From: an uncultured Ardenticatenia bacterium
Lineage (GTDB): Bacteria > Chloroflexota > Anaerolineae > 4572-78 > NAK82
DNA: 64,000 bases
Direction of reading: 5' to 3'
Assembly: GCA_937127125.1 (NCBI GenBank)
Contig: CAKZLO010000013.1
Location: forward strand, 1-64,000
Shown one piece after another: positions 8,304 to 18,178 of this stretch. The notes beneath the pieces were generated by a model. The model saw only the letters and a program-made list of their open reading frames with translations. It searched no databases and had not been told where the DNA came from. A program made the position numbers and the translations under genes. Position 1 is the stretch's first letter. The number at the start of each line of letters is the position of its first letter.

Positions 8304-9317
8304 TCATTCGAACAGGCGCGCGATCTCATCCCGCGCGAGGACAGGTAGAGGCTTCGGTCCTTCCTTTGTTAACAACGTGCACCCATTCTCGCGTGCGACG
8401 GCGCGTCCAATTACCGCTGCCGGAATGTCATTGGCGGCTAAAGCGGTTACAATACTACTGGTATCCTCAGGGGGGCAGGCGATCAGCAGCGCGCCAGAAG
8501 CGATCACTCCCAGCACGTTGAGACCGAAATAGGCACACAGGCGCTCTGTCTCAGGAAAGATGGGGATCGCGGTCTGGTCAATTTCCAAGCCAATGCCTGC
8601 CGCGCGTGCCATCTCCCACAACCCACTTACCAGCCCACCCTCAGTCGGATCGTGCATCGCATGCACCCGACCCGCCGCACATGCCAGCTGAGCATCCCGC
8701 ACTACGCTGATGCCCGGATTGTGGAGAAAGTCACGGCAACGTGCCAGCAGGGCAGCATCCATAGCGTCACGCAACTCTGCTTCCTTCTCGCGCACGATGA
8801 GAGCAGTCGCTTCTATAGCGATCCCCTTAGTAAGCAGAATGTCATCCCCCACTTGCACACCAGCACTGCTCACATAGTTACCTTTGTTCGTTTCGCCCAA
8901 CATATGTCCTATCACGATCGGTCGCTCCAGTGCGTGGGTGATTTCGGTGTGCCCACCAGCTAACGTGATACCCAGCTCCTCGCAAGCATTGGCAATCTGT
9001 TCAAAGATGGAGTCCACCAGCTGGCTATCAGTCTTGCCTTCCGGCAACAGCAGCGTGGCCAGAAACCAGCGCGGCACAGCACCAGCGCAGGCAATGTCGT
9101 TTGCATTAATGTGAACGACATACCAGCCAATCTCATCCGTGGCGAAAGTGATGGGATCGCTCTTGGCCACCAGGTAATGATCGCCCATGTCAATCACGGC
9201 GGCATCTTCACCCACCCGTGGCGGCACGATTAACCGCGCATCCGGCCGACGGTAGCGCGCTAGGAGGGCGTCGAGGTATTCAGCTGGCAGCTTACCCACC
9301 GGAAGCACTGCATTCAT
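8304..9317 (-). CDS. AIR synthase-related (PurM/HypE-like) protein
   Basis: About 337 residues with the PurM/HypE/SelD/ThiL superfamily fold: PPRVGEDAAVIDMGDHYLVAKSDPITF near the N-terminus, HINANDIACAGAVPRWFLATLLLP, and AGGHTEIT. These enzymes use ATP to phosphorylate or activate a carbonyl group or selenium. No hyp hydrogenase genes, pur genes or sel genes are nearby, so no specific reaction is assigned; it best resembles the HypE-like orphan group. The ATG at 9317 with GAGAGAAG upstream is chosen over the GTG at 9332. First gene of the operon, it is preceded by an unusual structured leader (9318-9525). Confidence 0.78.
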   Translation of the reverse strand: MNAVLPVGKLPAEYLDALLARYRRPDARLIVPPRVGEDAAVIDMGDHYLVAKSDPITFATDEIGWYVVHINANDIACAGAVPRWFLATLLLPEGKTDSQLVDSIFEQIANACEELGITLAGGHTEITHALERPIVIGHMLGETNKGNYVSSAGVQVGDDILLTKGIAIEATALIVREKEAELRDAMDAALLARCRDFLHNPGISVVRDAQLACAAGRVHAMHDPTEGGLVSGLWEMARAAGIGLEIDQTAIPIFPETERLCAYFGLNVLGVIASGALLIACPPEDTSSIVTALAANDIPAAVIGRAVARENGCTLLTKEGPKPLPVLARDEIARLFE

Positions 9318-9525
9318 AGCTACTTCTCTCACTGGGATGATAGGAGTGATGACAAGAACATGGGACCTCCCCGCTATGAGAAGGTCCCATGCCGCGCCGT
9401 GGCGTATTACCGATAAACCGGAGGTGACGCCACGGCGCTCAGCCTGCTACTAAAACATTGGTCCATTGGCATCACCTCCCTGTCCTAGGATGGCATCACC
9501 AGGACAAGAGGCGGGCACTCTTGTC
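9318..9525 (-). ncRNA. Structured 5' leader of the AIR synthase-like/truD operon
   Basis: From the predicted start near 9525 the RNA contains, in order: hairpin GACAAGAG/CTCTTGTC (arms 9518-9525 and 9503-9510); hairpin TGTCCT/AGGACA; a 19-codon ORF with a strong ribosome site; an 11-bp perfect hairpin (9427-9437 with 9395-9405) whose 5' arm lies in that ORF; and a 10-bp perfect hairpin (9382-9391 with 9359-9368). The ribosome site GGAGGTGATGCC (9468-9479) can also pair with 9420-9431 with one G-U, giving an alternative fold that hides it. It matches no riboswitch class that I recognise. The function is inferred only from the architecture. Confidence 0.55.
9407..9466 (-). CDS. Leader mini-ORF, 19 codons
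   Basis: ATG at 9466 after a near-ideal GGGAGGTGATGCC, stop TAA at 9407-9409. The peptide reads MDQCFSSRLSAVASPPVYR, with four Ser codons among 19. The stop codon falls in the loop of the 11-bp hairpin, so translating ribosomes would open that hairpin. This fits a regulatory leader peptide, but without an obvious run of a control amino acid. A precursor peptide is the alternative; no modification enzyme is nearby. Confidence 0.45.
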   Translation of the reverse strand: MDQCFSSRLSAVASPPVYR

Positions 9526-9531
9526 ACGCAT

Positions 9532-9560
9532 AGTATGGCATACAACCGCAGAAATGTCAA
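9532..9560 (-). promoter_or_regulatory. Sigma-70 promoter of the AIR synthase-like/truD operon
   Basis: Minus strand: perfect TTGACA (9555-9560), 17-bp spacer, CATACT (9532-9537). Transcription would start near 9525, exactly at the first leader hairpin. Confidence 0.7.
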
Positions 9561-16295: not shown

Positions 16296-18038
16296 TCACC
16301 TCAATCGATACATCAGGGCGGCGCCGGCAACGAACAACCCTGTCGCATAGCCAAATCCAGCCGAGGGGCTGATGCTTTGCCACAGTGCTCCAACAATTAC
16401 ACTCGACAAGAAGTCTCCTACTCCGTTCACTGTGGCTAACACTCCGTAGCCTGTGCCACGCAGGTCATCGGGTAGCAAATCAGCTGCCAGTGCGCCCTCC
16501 AGAGCATCCTCAGCCGCCAAGTACACCCCTCCCAATGCGAACAACAAACCCAGATGCCATATTGACGGTGTCAAGAACAACCAGCCAATCCCCATAACAG
16601 CTGCAGCCAAATACCCTAACGCTAACAACAAGCGCTTGCCTAACCGATCGGCCAGTGCACCAATCGGATAGGACATCCCGGCGTATAGCACGTTGTGCCA
16701 AACATACAATGCCATTGCCAGCTGCCCGGCTTGTGTTGTACCTACCAAAGGTTCCAATACGGAGTTGGCACGCAGGATGAGCAAGCTATGAGCAAAATCG
16801 CCTGCACCGAAGACACCCACTGCTATCAAAAACAACCTGAAGCGTATCGGTAAAGATCGCACGGCTTTGAGCAGGCCGCCAGCATGACGTTTGTTGCGAG
16901 CATGTTCGCGAACCAGGAAGGCAAACGAACACGTAGCAAGCAGACCGGGTATCAACGTGAATGCAAAGATGTATTGGTAGCTGACTTTAGGATCAACGTG
17001 CCCGGCCAAAAGGCTCATCAGTACTAAACCAATTGCGGGACCTAAGATGGCACCCAGAGTATCACCCGCCCGGTGGAAACCAAAAGCTCGCCCACGAGCT
17101 GATGCTTCGACAGAATCCGCCAGTAGTGCATCTCGCACCGGTCCACGTGTACCACGCCCGAGCCAGCCCGCCGCTCGTACGGCCACGACATAGGGCCAAG
17201 CAGTTATCAGGGCAAACATGCCTGTGGTCACACCAGTTAGTGCATAACCAAACACAGCGATTGGCTTGCGCCGCGCCACTCGATCACTGAGCCATCCCGC
17301 CCACACCTTCGCGAGTGAGGACACTGCATCCGCTATGCCTTCTACGACACCCAATGCTACAGGCGGCGCACCAATGGACGCCAAGAACAAGGGTAAGATG
17401 GATGTTGCCATCTCGTGGCCGGCGTCGCTGAACAGGCTAGCCAACGCCATGCCGACAACATTGCGGTTCAACCAGGATGCTGAATGATCAGCAGTTGCTA
17501 CCGCTGACGATCTGTCGTCACCGCTAGAAGAGACCGAGTTAGCATCACAGCGCAGGGTCATCTGTGCCTCGGGGATTGTATCCCGAGCCACATCGCGCAT
17601 TGGCCCCTTCGTAGAGCGTGTGACCTCGGCCAGAGCCGCCATGGCCTGGTCATCCCCGATGCACTCCAGGGCTTTTGCCGCCTCTGCTCGCGCCATGAAC
17701 GAGGCATTTGCATCCCTCAGTAGTTCAATCAGACACGGTACTGCGTCACGGTTGCCGATCAGCCCCAGACTCTTAACCGCTACAGCAGTCAAATATGGAT
17801 CGTTCGCCTCACGTGCCGTCACCACCCGGATCAGTGCAGGCACTGCACGTCCCTGACGCATGCGCCCCAACATCCAGGCAGCTCGCAGGCGAGTCATCGG
17901 GTCGGGGTGTTGCAGCGCAGCAATGTACTTGTCTACTATATCCATCCCACTCTGCTCAACGTACGCGCCACAATGTGGGCATACTATCGCGTCATGGGGT
18001 ATAGTGTTCCAGCACGATGGACAGTAATGTGTAAGCAT
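16296..18038 (-). CDS. MFS transporter with N-terminal zinc ribbon and HEAT-like repeats
   Basis: About 580 residues in three parts. Residues 1-30 form a zinc ribbon (YCPSCWN, then VCPHCGAYV). Residues about 35-150 are HEAT/PBS-lyase-like repeats (DPMTRLRAAWMLGRM, PYLTAVAVKSLGLIG, SFMARAEAAKALECIG). Residues about 180-580 are an MFS domain of about 12 segments, including a motif-A-like loop DRVARRKPIAVFGYALTG. An ATG at 18038 with AGAAAGG upstream is preferred over a TTG at 18077, which lies in the riboswitch terminator tail. The gene directly follows a fluoride riboswitch, so its expression should rise with fluoride. Whether it exports fluoride or another ion or toxin is not known; fluoride exporters usually belong to Fluc or CLC-F. 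Confidence 0.85.
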   Translation of the reverse strand: MLTHYCPSCWNTIPHDAIVCPHCGAYVEQSGMDIVDKYIAALQHPDPMTRLRAAWMLGRMRQGRAVPALIRVVTAREANDPYLTAVAVKSLGLIGNRDAVPCLIELLRDANASFMARAEAAKALECIGDDQAMAALAEVTRSTKGPMRDVARDTIPEAQMTLRCDANSVSSSGDDRSSAVATADHSASWLNRNVVGMALASLFSDAGHEMATSILPLFLASIGAPPVALGVVEGIADAVSSLAKVWAGWLSDRVARRKPIAVFGYALTGVTTGMFALITAWPYVVAVRAAGWLGRGTRGPVRDALLADSVEASARGRAFGFHRAGDTLGAILGPAIGLVLMSLLAGHVDPKVSYQYIFAFTLIPGLLATCSFAFLVREHARNKRHAGGLLKAVRSLPIRFRLFLIAVGVFGAGDFAHSLLILRANSVLEPLVGTTQAGQLAMALYVWHNVLYAGMSYPIGALADRLGKRLLLALGYLAAAVMGIGWLFLTPSIWHLGLLFALGGVYLAAEDALEGALAADLLPDDLRGTGYGVLATVNGVGDFLSSVIVGALWQSISPSAGFGYATGLFVAGAALMYRLR

Positions 18039-18084
18039 CCAGAAGCGCCTTTCTGGTTTTGCCTCTTGCAAGTTCAATGAAAAA

Positions 18085-18119
18085 AGCCTCTGCCCGCGAC
18101 TTCATCGCAGACAGAGGCT
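18085..18119 (-). terminator. Intrinsic terminator of the fluoride riboswitch
   Basis: Minus strand: AGCCTCTG (18112-18119) pairs with CAGAGGCT (18085-18092), with an inner GCGA/TCGC, and runs into six T's. The 5' arm AGCCTC is also the pseudoknot strand of the aptamer, so the two folds exclude each other: a classic ON switch. Confidence 0.85.
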
Positions 18120-18170
18120 ATCAGCCGATCATTCGGCGGTTCGCTTACGCACAAGCGAGCCTCATCGCTT
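18112..18170 (-). promoter_or_regulatory. Fluoride (crcB-type) riboswitch
   Basis: The minus-strand RNA has P1 AAGC-GATGAGGCTC-GCTT (18153-18170), then P2 GCCGA-ATGA-TCGGC, then TGATAGCCTCTG. GAGGCT in the P1 loop pairs with AGCCTC as the pseudoknot. This matches the Thermotoga petrophila fluoride aptamer element by element (GCGAUGAGGC, hairpin, CUGAU, GCCUCU). An extra 5-bp hairpin (CGCTT/AAGCG) lies between P1 and P2. Fluoride binding should stabilise this fold and prevent the overlapping terminator. Confidence 0.85.
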
Positions 18171-18178
18171 GTACTCTT

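Follow-up and report, generated by a model that had tools for sequence, protein, structure and literature searches.

A single-copy structured RNA with a micro-ORF in Chloroflexota: a candidate stand-alone, translation-gated small RNA gene

In the genome of an uncultured Ardenticatenia bacterium, a stretch of 64,000 nucleotides (contig CAKZLO010000013.1, positions 1 to 64,000, referred to here as the window) carries an element which, as judged by sequence comparison, is an autonomous small gene: it has its own promoter and terminator, occurs once per genome and is found beside varied neighbors. In the family of 95 elements analyzed here the order from 5' to 3' is promoter, segment P, segment A (the extended ribosome site GGAGGTGATGC), a short ORF, segment B, the stop codon, segment C and the terminator hairpin D, and the pairing alternatives are A with B or B with C. 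Based on the sequences and on their predicted folds, we put the chances at about even that this is a stand-alone small RNA gene working as a translation-gated switch.

The element in the window

The element spans positions 9560-9352 of the minus strand, and its promoter, its 19-codon ORF with a strong ribosome site, and its hairpins are all present (Table 1). A sequence-only reading had described a regulatory-looking RNA with a micro-ORF in this region, and this proved to be real, its listed features lying where they had been placed or one to two bases off. The promoter, TTGACA-17-CATACT, was found with 10 of 12 consensus matches; the pairing of the ribosome site (GGAGG at 9479-9475) with a downstream segment, previously given as 9468-9479 with 9420-9431, involves 9467-9479 and 9420-9432 and is 92% complementary over 13 nt; the hairpin overlapping the ORF, B:C, is paired at 12 of 12 positions where 11 bp had been reported; and the 10-bp hairpin next to it was recovered with 10 of 10 pairs. 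The fold of the window RNA is beyond chance: the 218-nt molecule reaches -100.6 kcal/mol, whereas its dinucleotide shuffles lie at -73.6 +/- 4.4 (z = -6.2), and 0 of 200 fold as well. The window copy of D went undetected in a simple terminator scan, and the T run that follows this hairpin is better in many relatives than in the window copy. Elsewhere in the window, a fluoride riboswitch (18105-18178, minus strand) scores 34.1 bits against a gathering cut-off of 34; the gene 3' of it (16296-18077, minus strand) appears by eye to encode HEAT-repeat and MFS-transporter parts, and crcB is not obvious there.

Table 1. Features of the element and of its neighbor in the window
Feature	Position	Strand	Basis or remark
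Promoter, TTGACA (9560-9555), 17 nt, CATACT (9537-9532), TG before the -10 box (extended)	9532-9560	-	10/12
5' hairpin, 8 bp, arms 9518-9525 and 9503-9510	9503-9525	-	similar hairpins by eye in some relatives
Segment P, GCCATCC, potential mask of the ribosome site (P:A)	9488-9494	-	RNAalifold consensus
Segment A, extended ribosome site GGAGGTGATGCCA	9467-9479	-	GGAGGTG invariant in the 16-row alignment
Micro-ORF MDQCFSSRLSAVASPPVYR, 19 codons and TAA (ATG 9466 to TAA 9407)	9407-9466	-	phase and AGU evidence
Segment B, ORF end; 9420-9432 pairs with A, 9427-9438 with C, mutually exclusive	9420-9438	-	
Segment C, 3' arm of the B:C hairpin, directly past the stop codon	9394-9405	-	
Segment D, intrinsic-terminator-like hairpin (9359-9368 with 9382-9391), then T-rich tail TTCTTGT	9352-9391	-	both-side changes in 15/15 pairs
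AIR-synthase-like gene (AIRS, AIRS_C), neighbor outside the element	8304-9332	-	likely start ATG 9317 from homologues

Copy number and genomic neighborhood

The AIR-synthase-like protein encoded next to the element was sought in 61 relatives, 58 of which had a match, and the best 30 of those loci were fetched. The element lies upstream of the gene and on the same strand in 16 of the 30, in several families; among the other 14, L007 and L029 have less than 200 nt of upstream sequence present. A covariance model (R1) built from the alignment of the 16 homologues matches 47 of the 61 relatives, 45 of them exactly once and two with an additional weaker match, and places the element beside the AIR-synthase-like gene in 16 of the positive genomes and elsewhere in 31. 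The fetched copies away from this gene mostly retain the same promoter, ORF, hairpins and terminator amid unrelated surroundings. Among the 95 elements, 79 lie away from the AIR-synthase-like gene, and for these simple ORF picking put the closest ORF within 400 nt downstream on the opposite strand in 34 and on the same strand in 31, with none found or the contig ending in 14. When ten proteins encoded downstream on the same strand were scanned, no two were related in function (TilS, epimerase, radical SAM, amidohydrolase, luciferase-like, RecF/RecN/SMC N-terminal domain, PIG-L, P450, class II tRNA synthetase and SurE).

The element had been taken for the leader of an AIR-synthase-like/truD/AlaX operon, a view that does not agree with a single-copy element which has its own terminator and adjoins that gene in only 16 of 47 positive genomes. 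In fact, the 31 copies located elsewhere, together with the unrelated or oppositely directed neighbors, lead us to reject a general role as AIRS/truD leader. The features of an autonomous small RNA gene, namely own promoter, own terminator and independent location, were all found, and in view of the single copy and the varied neighbors we regard the element as an autonomous gene that happens to precede the AIR-synthase-like gene here. The promoter scores at least 10/12 in 71 of the 95 elements, a level reached by 1.1% of mononucleotide shuffles, and stands at a median of 52 nt ahead of the ribosome site. These promoters are near-perfect and none of the 95 scores 12/12; among the rows listed, most -10 boxes read NATAAT or NATACT, where N is a base other than T, usually with an extended TG.

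Distribution across genomes

When 400 Chloroflexota genomes were searched with R1, 79 were positive, 78 of them with a single match; counted by hand from the listing, the positives comprise 44 of 55 genomes in the class of the window and 35 of 345 outside it. A broader covariance model, R2, built from the 95 elements, found 96 positives among 251 genomes, all with a single match, including 31 of 36 in the class of the window (hand count). The distant matches in families f53, f89 and f63 are supported by synteny, since nine of the ten fetched copies have a common upstream gene on the same strand, LysM-like by eye. A pattern scan of genome contigs returned at least 118 stretches, 80 of which were inspected, and yielded a record outside Chloroflexota, from an uncultured Bdellovibrionales bacterium (L170). 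Searching 143 genomes of its class with R2 gave 25 positives, one match each, and the 17 of these inspected by eye display a ribosome site, a short ORF, a hairpin and a terminator-like end; the neighbors of the copies in this class vary, except for one gene common to six. In a control comprising 597 genomes of three other phyla R2 gave 8 weak matches, none with the layout of the element, and in eight outgroup genomes it gave no match. The element occurs in many Chloroflexota and probably also in Bdellovibrionales-type bacteria. Many actinobacterial pattern matches with constant spacing were rejected, as by eye they seem to lie inside one coding sequence.

The set of 95 leaves out L073, L076, L077, L103, L104, L107, L108 and L110, which are weak, partial or aberrant, L164 (12.6 bits), and L134, L143, L147, L163, L169, L186, L192 and L212 as near-duplicates or unneeded; the sequence counts likewise leave out L213-L250 and the R1 and R2 matches whose sequence was not fetched. 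Three matches from family f56 (L105, L106 and L112) were dropped because their ORF runs into the terminator and B:C is missing. These short relatives or look-alikes have the same GGAGGTGGTGCC-ATG start, and their ORF of 11-12 codons ends inside the terminator hairpin, so that translation would directly oppose termination.

Alternative pairings and covariation

Both alternative pairings recur across the family. A:B is better than in mononucleotide shuffles (p <= 0.05) in 81 of the 95 elements and B:C in 91, and in 75 the two B segments have 3 nt or more in common. In an alignment of 16 rows not fitted to any structure (A1), 99.5% of the B:C cells are paired and 3 of the 12 pairs have changes on both sides (11 cells), which 0 of 500 shuffles reach; for A:B 95.7% of the cells are paired, with four both-side changes that are matched by 3 of 500 shuffles. 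In the alignment of all 95 rows, made to fit the structure model, both-side changes occur in 12 of 12 pairs of B:C and 15 of 15 pairs of D, and over the whole structure they amount to 592 cells versus 130 +/- 14 in shuffles. All of these shuffle comparisons leave the relatedness of the homologues out of account.

Partition-function folding points to a switch between the two pairings. In RNAs cut before C the ribosome site is paired with B in 80 of 95 elements (probability > 0.5), and in full RNAs in 8 of 95. Shuffling the sequence past the stop codon abolishes this release, the ribosome site remaining with B in 73 of 95, which indicates that the sequence around C specifically frees A from B; shuffling the body of the ORF lowers A:B to 18 of 95. 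In the full RNA the ribosome site is mostly paired upstream (72 of 95), and since it still pairs upstream in 55 of 95 after the upstream 45 nt are shuffled, the specificity of P:A is weak; the variation of the P:A pairs in the 95 homologues is mostly from C to U opposite G of A. The ribosome site has an unpaired probability above 0.5 in only 2 of 95 cut and 3 of 95 full RNAs, and it therefore looks masked in both folds, such that the ON state would need a helper or strong 30S binding. In the RNAalifold consensus, B:C and the terminator D form together and have no bases or columns in common. Beyond the core class the end of the ORF often has a second GGAGG resembling a ribosome site shortly upstream of the stop codon, as in L072, L074, L075, L137 and L254, among other loci; at that position the core class has the complementary CACCTCC.

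The micro-ORF

An ORF was parsed in all 95 elements, mostly of 14-20 codons and in one just 9 codons long. Its start codon and the first G of GGAGG are 13 nt apart in 62 of 95, the stop codon is TAG in 59, TAA in 31 and TGA in 5, and the distance from start to B is mostly 16, 19, 22, 25 or 28 nt, one phase being kept in 83 of 95. The early codons are rich in AGT (141 of 601; for eight window genes the figure is 28 of 2820), and within codons 2-9 this triplet is in frame in 143 of 144 cases, at least one being present in 86 of 95 members. Serine is encoded by AGY in 170 of 182 cases. An earlier remark on the serine codons of this ORF was therefore apt, since throughout the family the ORF shows a strong and specific enrichment of AGU, whatever the neighbor gene; support for the accompanying idea of a link to AlaX and Ser-tRNA(Ala) was not found.

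A covariance search and a comparison of leader peptides had been suggested as checks, and both were carried out: the hairpins do covary, and the peptide changes freely, close pairs differing in codons 2-9 by 59 nonsynonymous versus 25 synonymous changes (53 non-independent pairs). Amino-acid conservation beyond the RNA constraint, as expected of a small protein, was not found. By eye, a peptide likeness is apparent as GIT-(x)-EV in several lineages and as CDIT..AEV in members of the Bdellovibrionales class, for which 12 of 13 rows gave an ORF; the other, L260, was set aside as it has no exact GGAGG, and it shows the layout of the element by eye. This likeness is due in part to RNA pairing and in part perhaps not, and together with the AGU codons it could hint at a peptide role. 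As far as the sequences tell, it looks as if selection acts on the AGU codons and on translation as such, and much less on the peptide. In terms of a dual-function small RNA, phase and codon use are strong signs that the ORF may be translated. Regarding the other frames, stops in the -1 frame of codons 2-9 are commoner than in codon shuffles (182 versus 143 +/- 7, in 92 of 95 sequences versus 79 +/- 3) and those in the +1 frame rarer (48 versus 70); the former excess probably arises in part from the clustering of AGU, since AGUAGU reads UAG there.

Proposed mechanism and alternative explanations

The predicted folds suggest that during transcription B, the end of the ORF, would capture the ribosome site A, and that once C is made B:C would form, leaving A freed from B and held at most by the weaker P. 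At that point a 30S subunit might gain the extended ribosome site, which is very strong, and the ribosome would cross the AGU-rich codons, open B:C and terminate, mostly at UAG, in the loop or at its edge. By opening B:C, ribosome traffic would set the fold of the RNA, and probably also how long the RNA lasts or whether it can act in trans. The product is probably not the peptide, and our best guess for the output is a target of the RNA in trans. In a broader and rather doubtful version, the element would be an ancient housekeeping RNA class common to Chloroflexota and Bdellovibrionales-type bacteria, a single-copy minigene gauging initiation at the extended ribosome site and the reading of AGU, and reporting in trans via its fold.

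The position on the same strand just upstream of the AIR-synthase-like gene, seen in 16 of 30 loci and in several families, would fit a leader peptide and hairpins that decide, in this lineage at least, whether transcription continues into the AIR-synthase-like/truD/AlaX operon; in the window the terminator hairpin ends about 40 nt ahead of the AIR-synthase-like gene. We hold such an attenuator acting in cis to be unlikely, as 31 of 47 genomes carry the element elsewhere, the family precedes unrelated or oppositely directed genes, and B:C and D coexist on separate bases, leaving no antiterminator visible. Nevertheless, conserved tandem placement leaves room for a role in cis at particular sites, namely before the AIR-synthase-like gene in 16 genomes of the class of the window and before an Hpt/HATPase gene. 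The latter gene, CheA-like, follows the element at about 100-135 nt in Bdellovibrionales-class members, in all five loci of one fetched set (L272-L276) and also in L261. The separation of the terminator from the switch and the lack of a constant gene to control favor a free-standing, translation-gated RNA.

The ORF itself may alternatively be the point of the gene, with an active product of 14-20 residues whose synthesis the hairpins merely tune, and its presence in every element, the phase kept, the strong ribosome site and the by-eye likenesses (GIT-(x)-EV; CDIT..AEV) speak in this direction. The excess of nonsynonymous differences between close pairs (59 versus 25) makes such a micropeptide improbable, as does the almost exclusive use of AGY for serine, which reflects codon choice and not peptide choice; moreover, the most constant residues fall in B, where the need for RNA pairing limits sequence change. 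An antisense-type regulator, in which the B:C loop exposes CACCTCC and masks the ribosome sites of other mRNAs, draws on the 66 of 95 elements whose ORF has an anti-ribosome-site-like string within its final 26 nt, and on the window copy, where CACCTCC lies mostly in the loop under the B:C fold. We find this very unlikely, given that 29 of 95 elements are without the string, 14 of them having a ribosome-site-like string instead, so that it is not a common feature of the family.

Relation to known systems

Attenuators of amino-acid operons of the trp/his type combine a leader ORF, alternative pairings (1:2, 2:3 and 3:4) and an intrinsic terminator. The element likewise has a leader ORF, a chain of alternative pairings and an intrinsic terminator, but it is a single autonomous copy without a fixed downstream operon, its segment 2 is the ORF's own ribosome site, and its terminator is a separate hairpin that does not compete with the others.

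A precedent for leader output beyond the downstream operon is rnTrpL/peTrpL of Sinorhizobium, a trp attenuator leader ORF whose peptide acts in trans, according to the part of PMC7298713 drawn on here; unlike that system, the element mostly has no fixed operon and its peptide is not conserved. In the portion of PMC8632094 considered, odc1, uORFC-8-2 and uORFC-6-1 are, like the element, conserved structured RNAs with a short ORF, the ribosome site of odc1 being partly masked, but each belongs to one particular downstream gene; neither 'Chloroflex' nor 'Anaerolin' is found in the text of that paper. Another candidate RNA of Chloroflexota, the Chloroflexi-1 motif (RF01698), is given in the portion of PMC2864571 considered only for Chloroflexus aggregans, but cmscan gives no match of it to the element. 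At the gathering score, Rfam 15 has no family at the element in the window, nor in 20 loci (86,769 bases), and matches to the element are only sub-threshold (E 0.61 or worse). Literature searches, with most subscription papers outside their scope, found no description of it, nor does one occur in the parts considered of PMC2864571, PMC8632094, PMC3627812 and PMC7298713.

The element would thus be a widespread RNA gene missing from Rfam, in which the parts of an attenuator, that is, a leader ORF, mutually exclusive hairpins and a terminator, are cut loose from any operon. This suggests that attenuator-type logic is able to stand alone as a gene, and makes the element a candidate translation sensor in bacteria with few described small RNAs.
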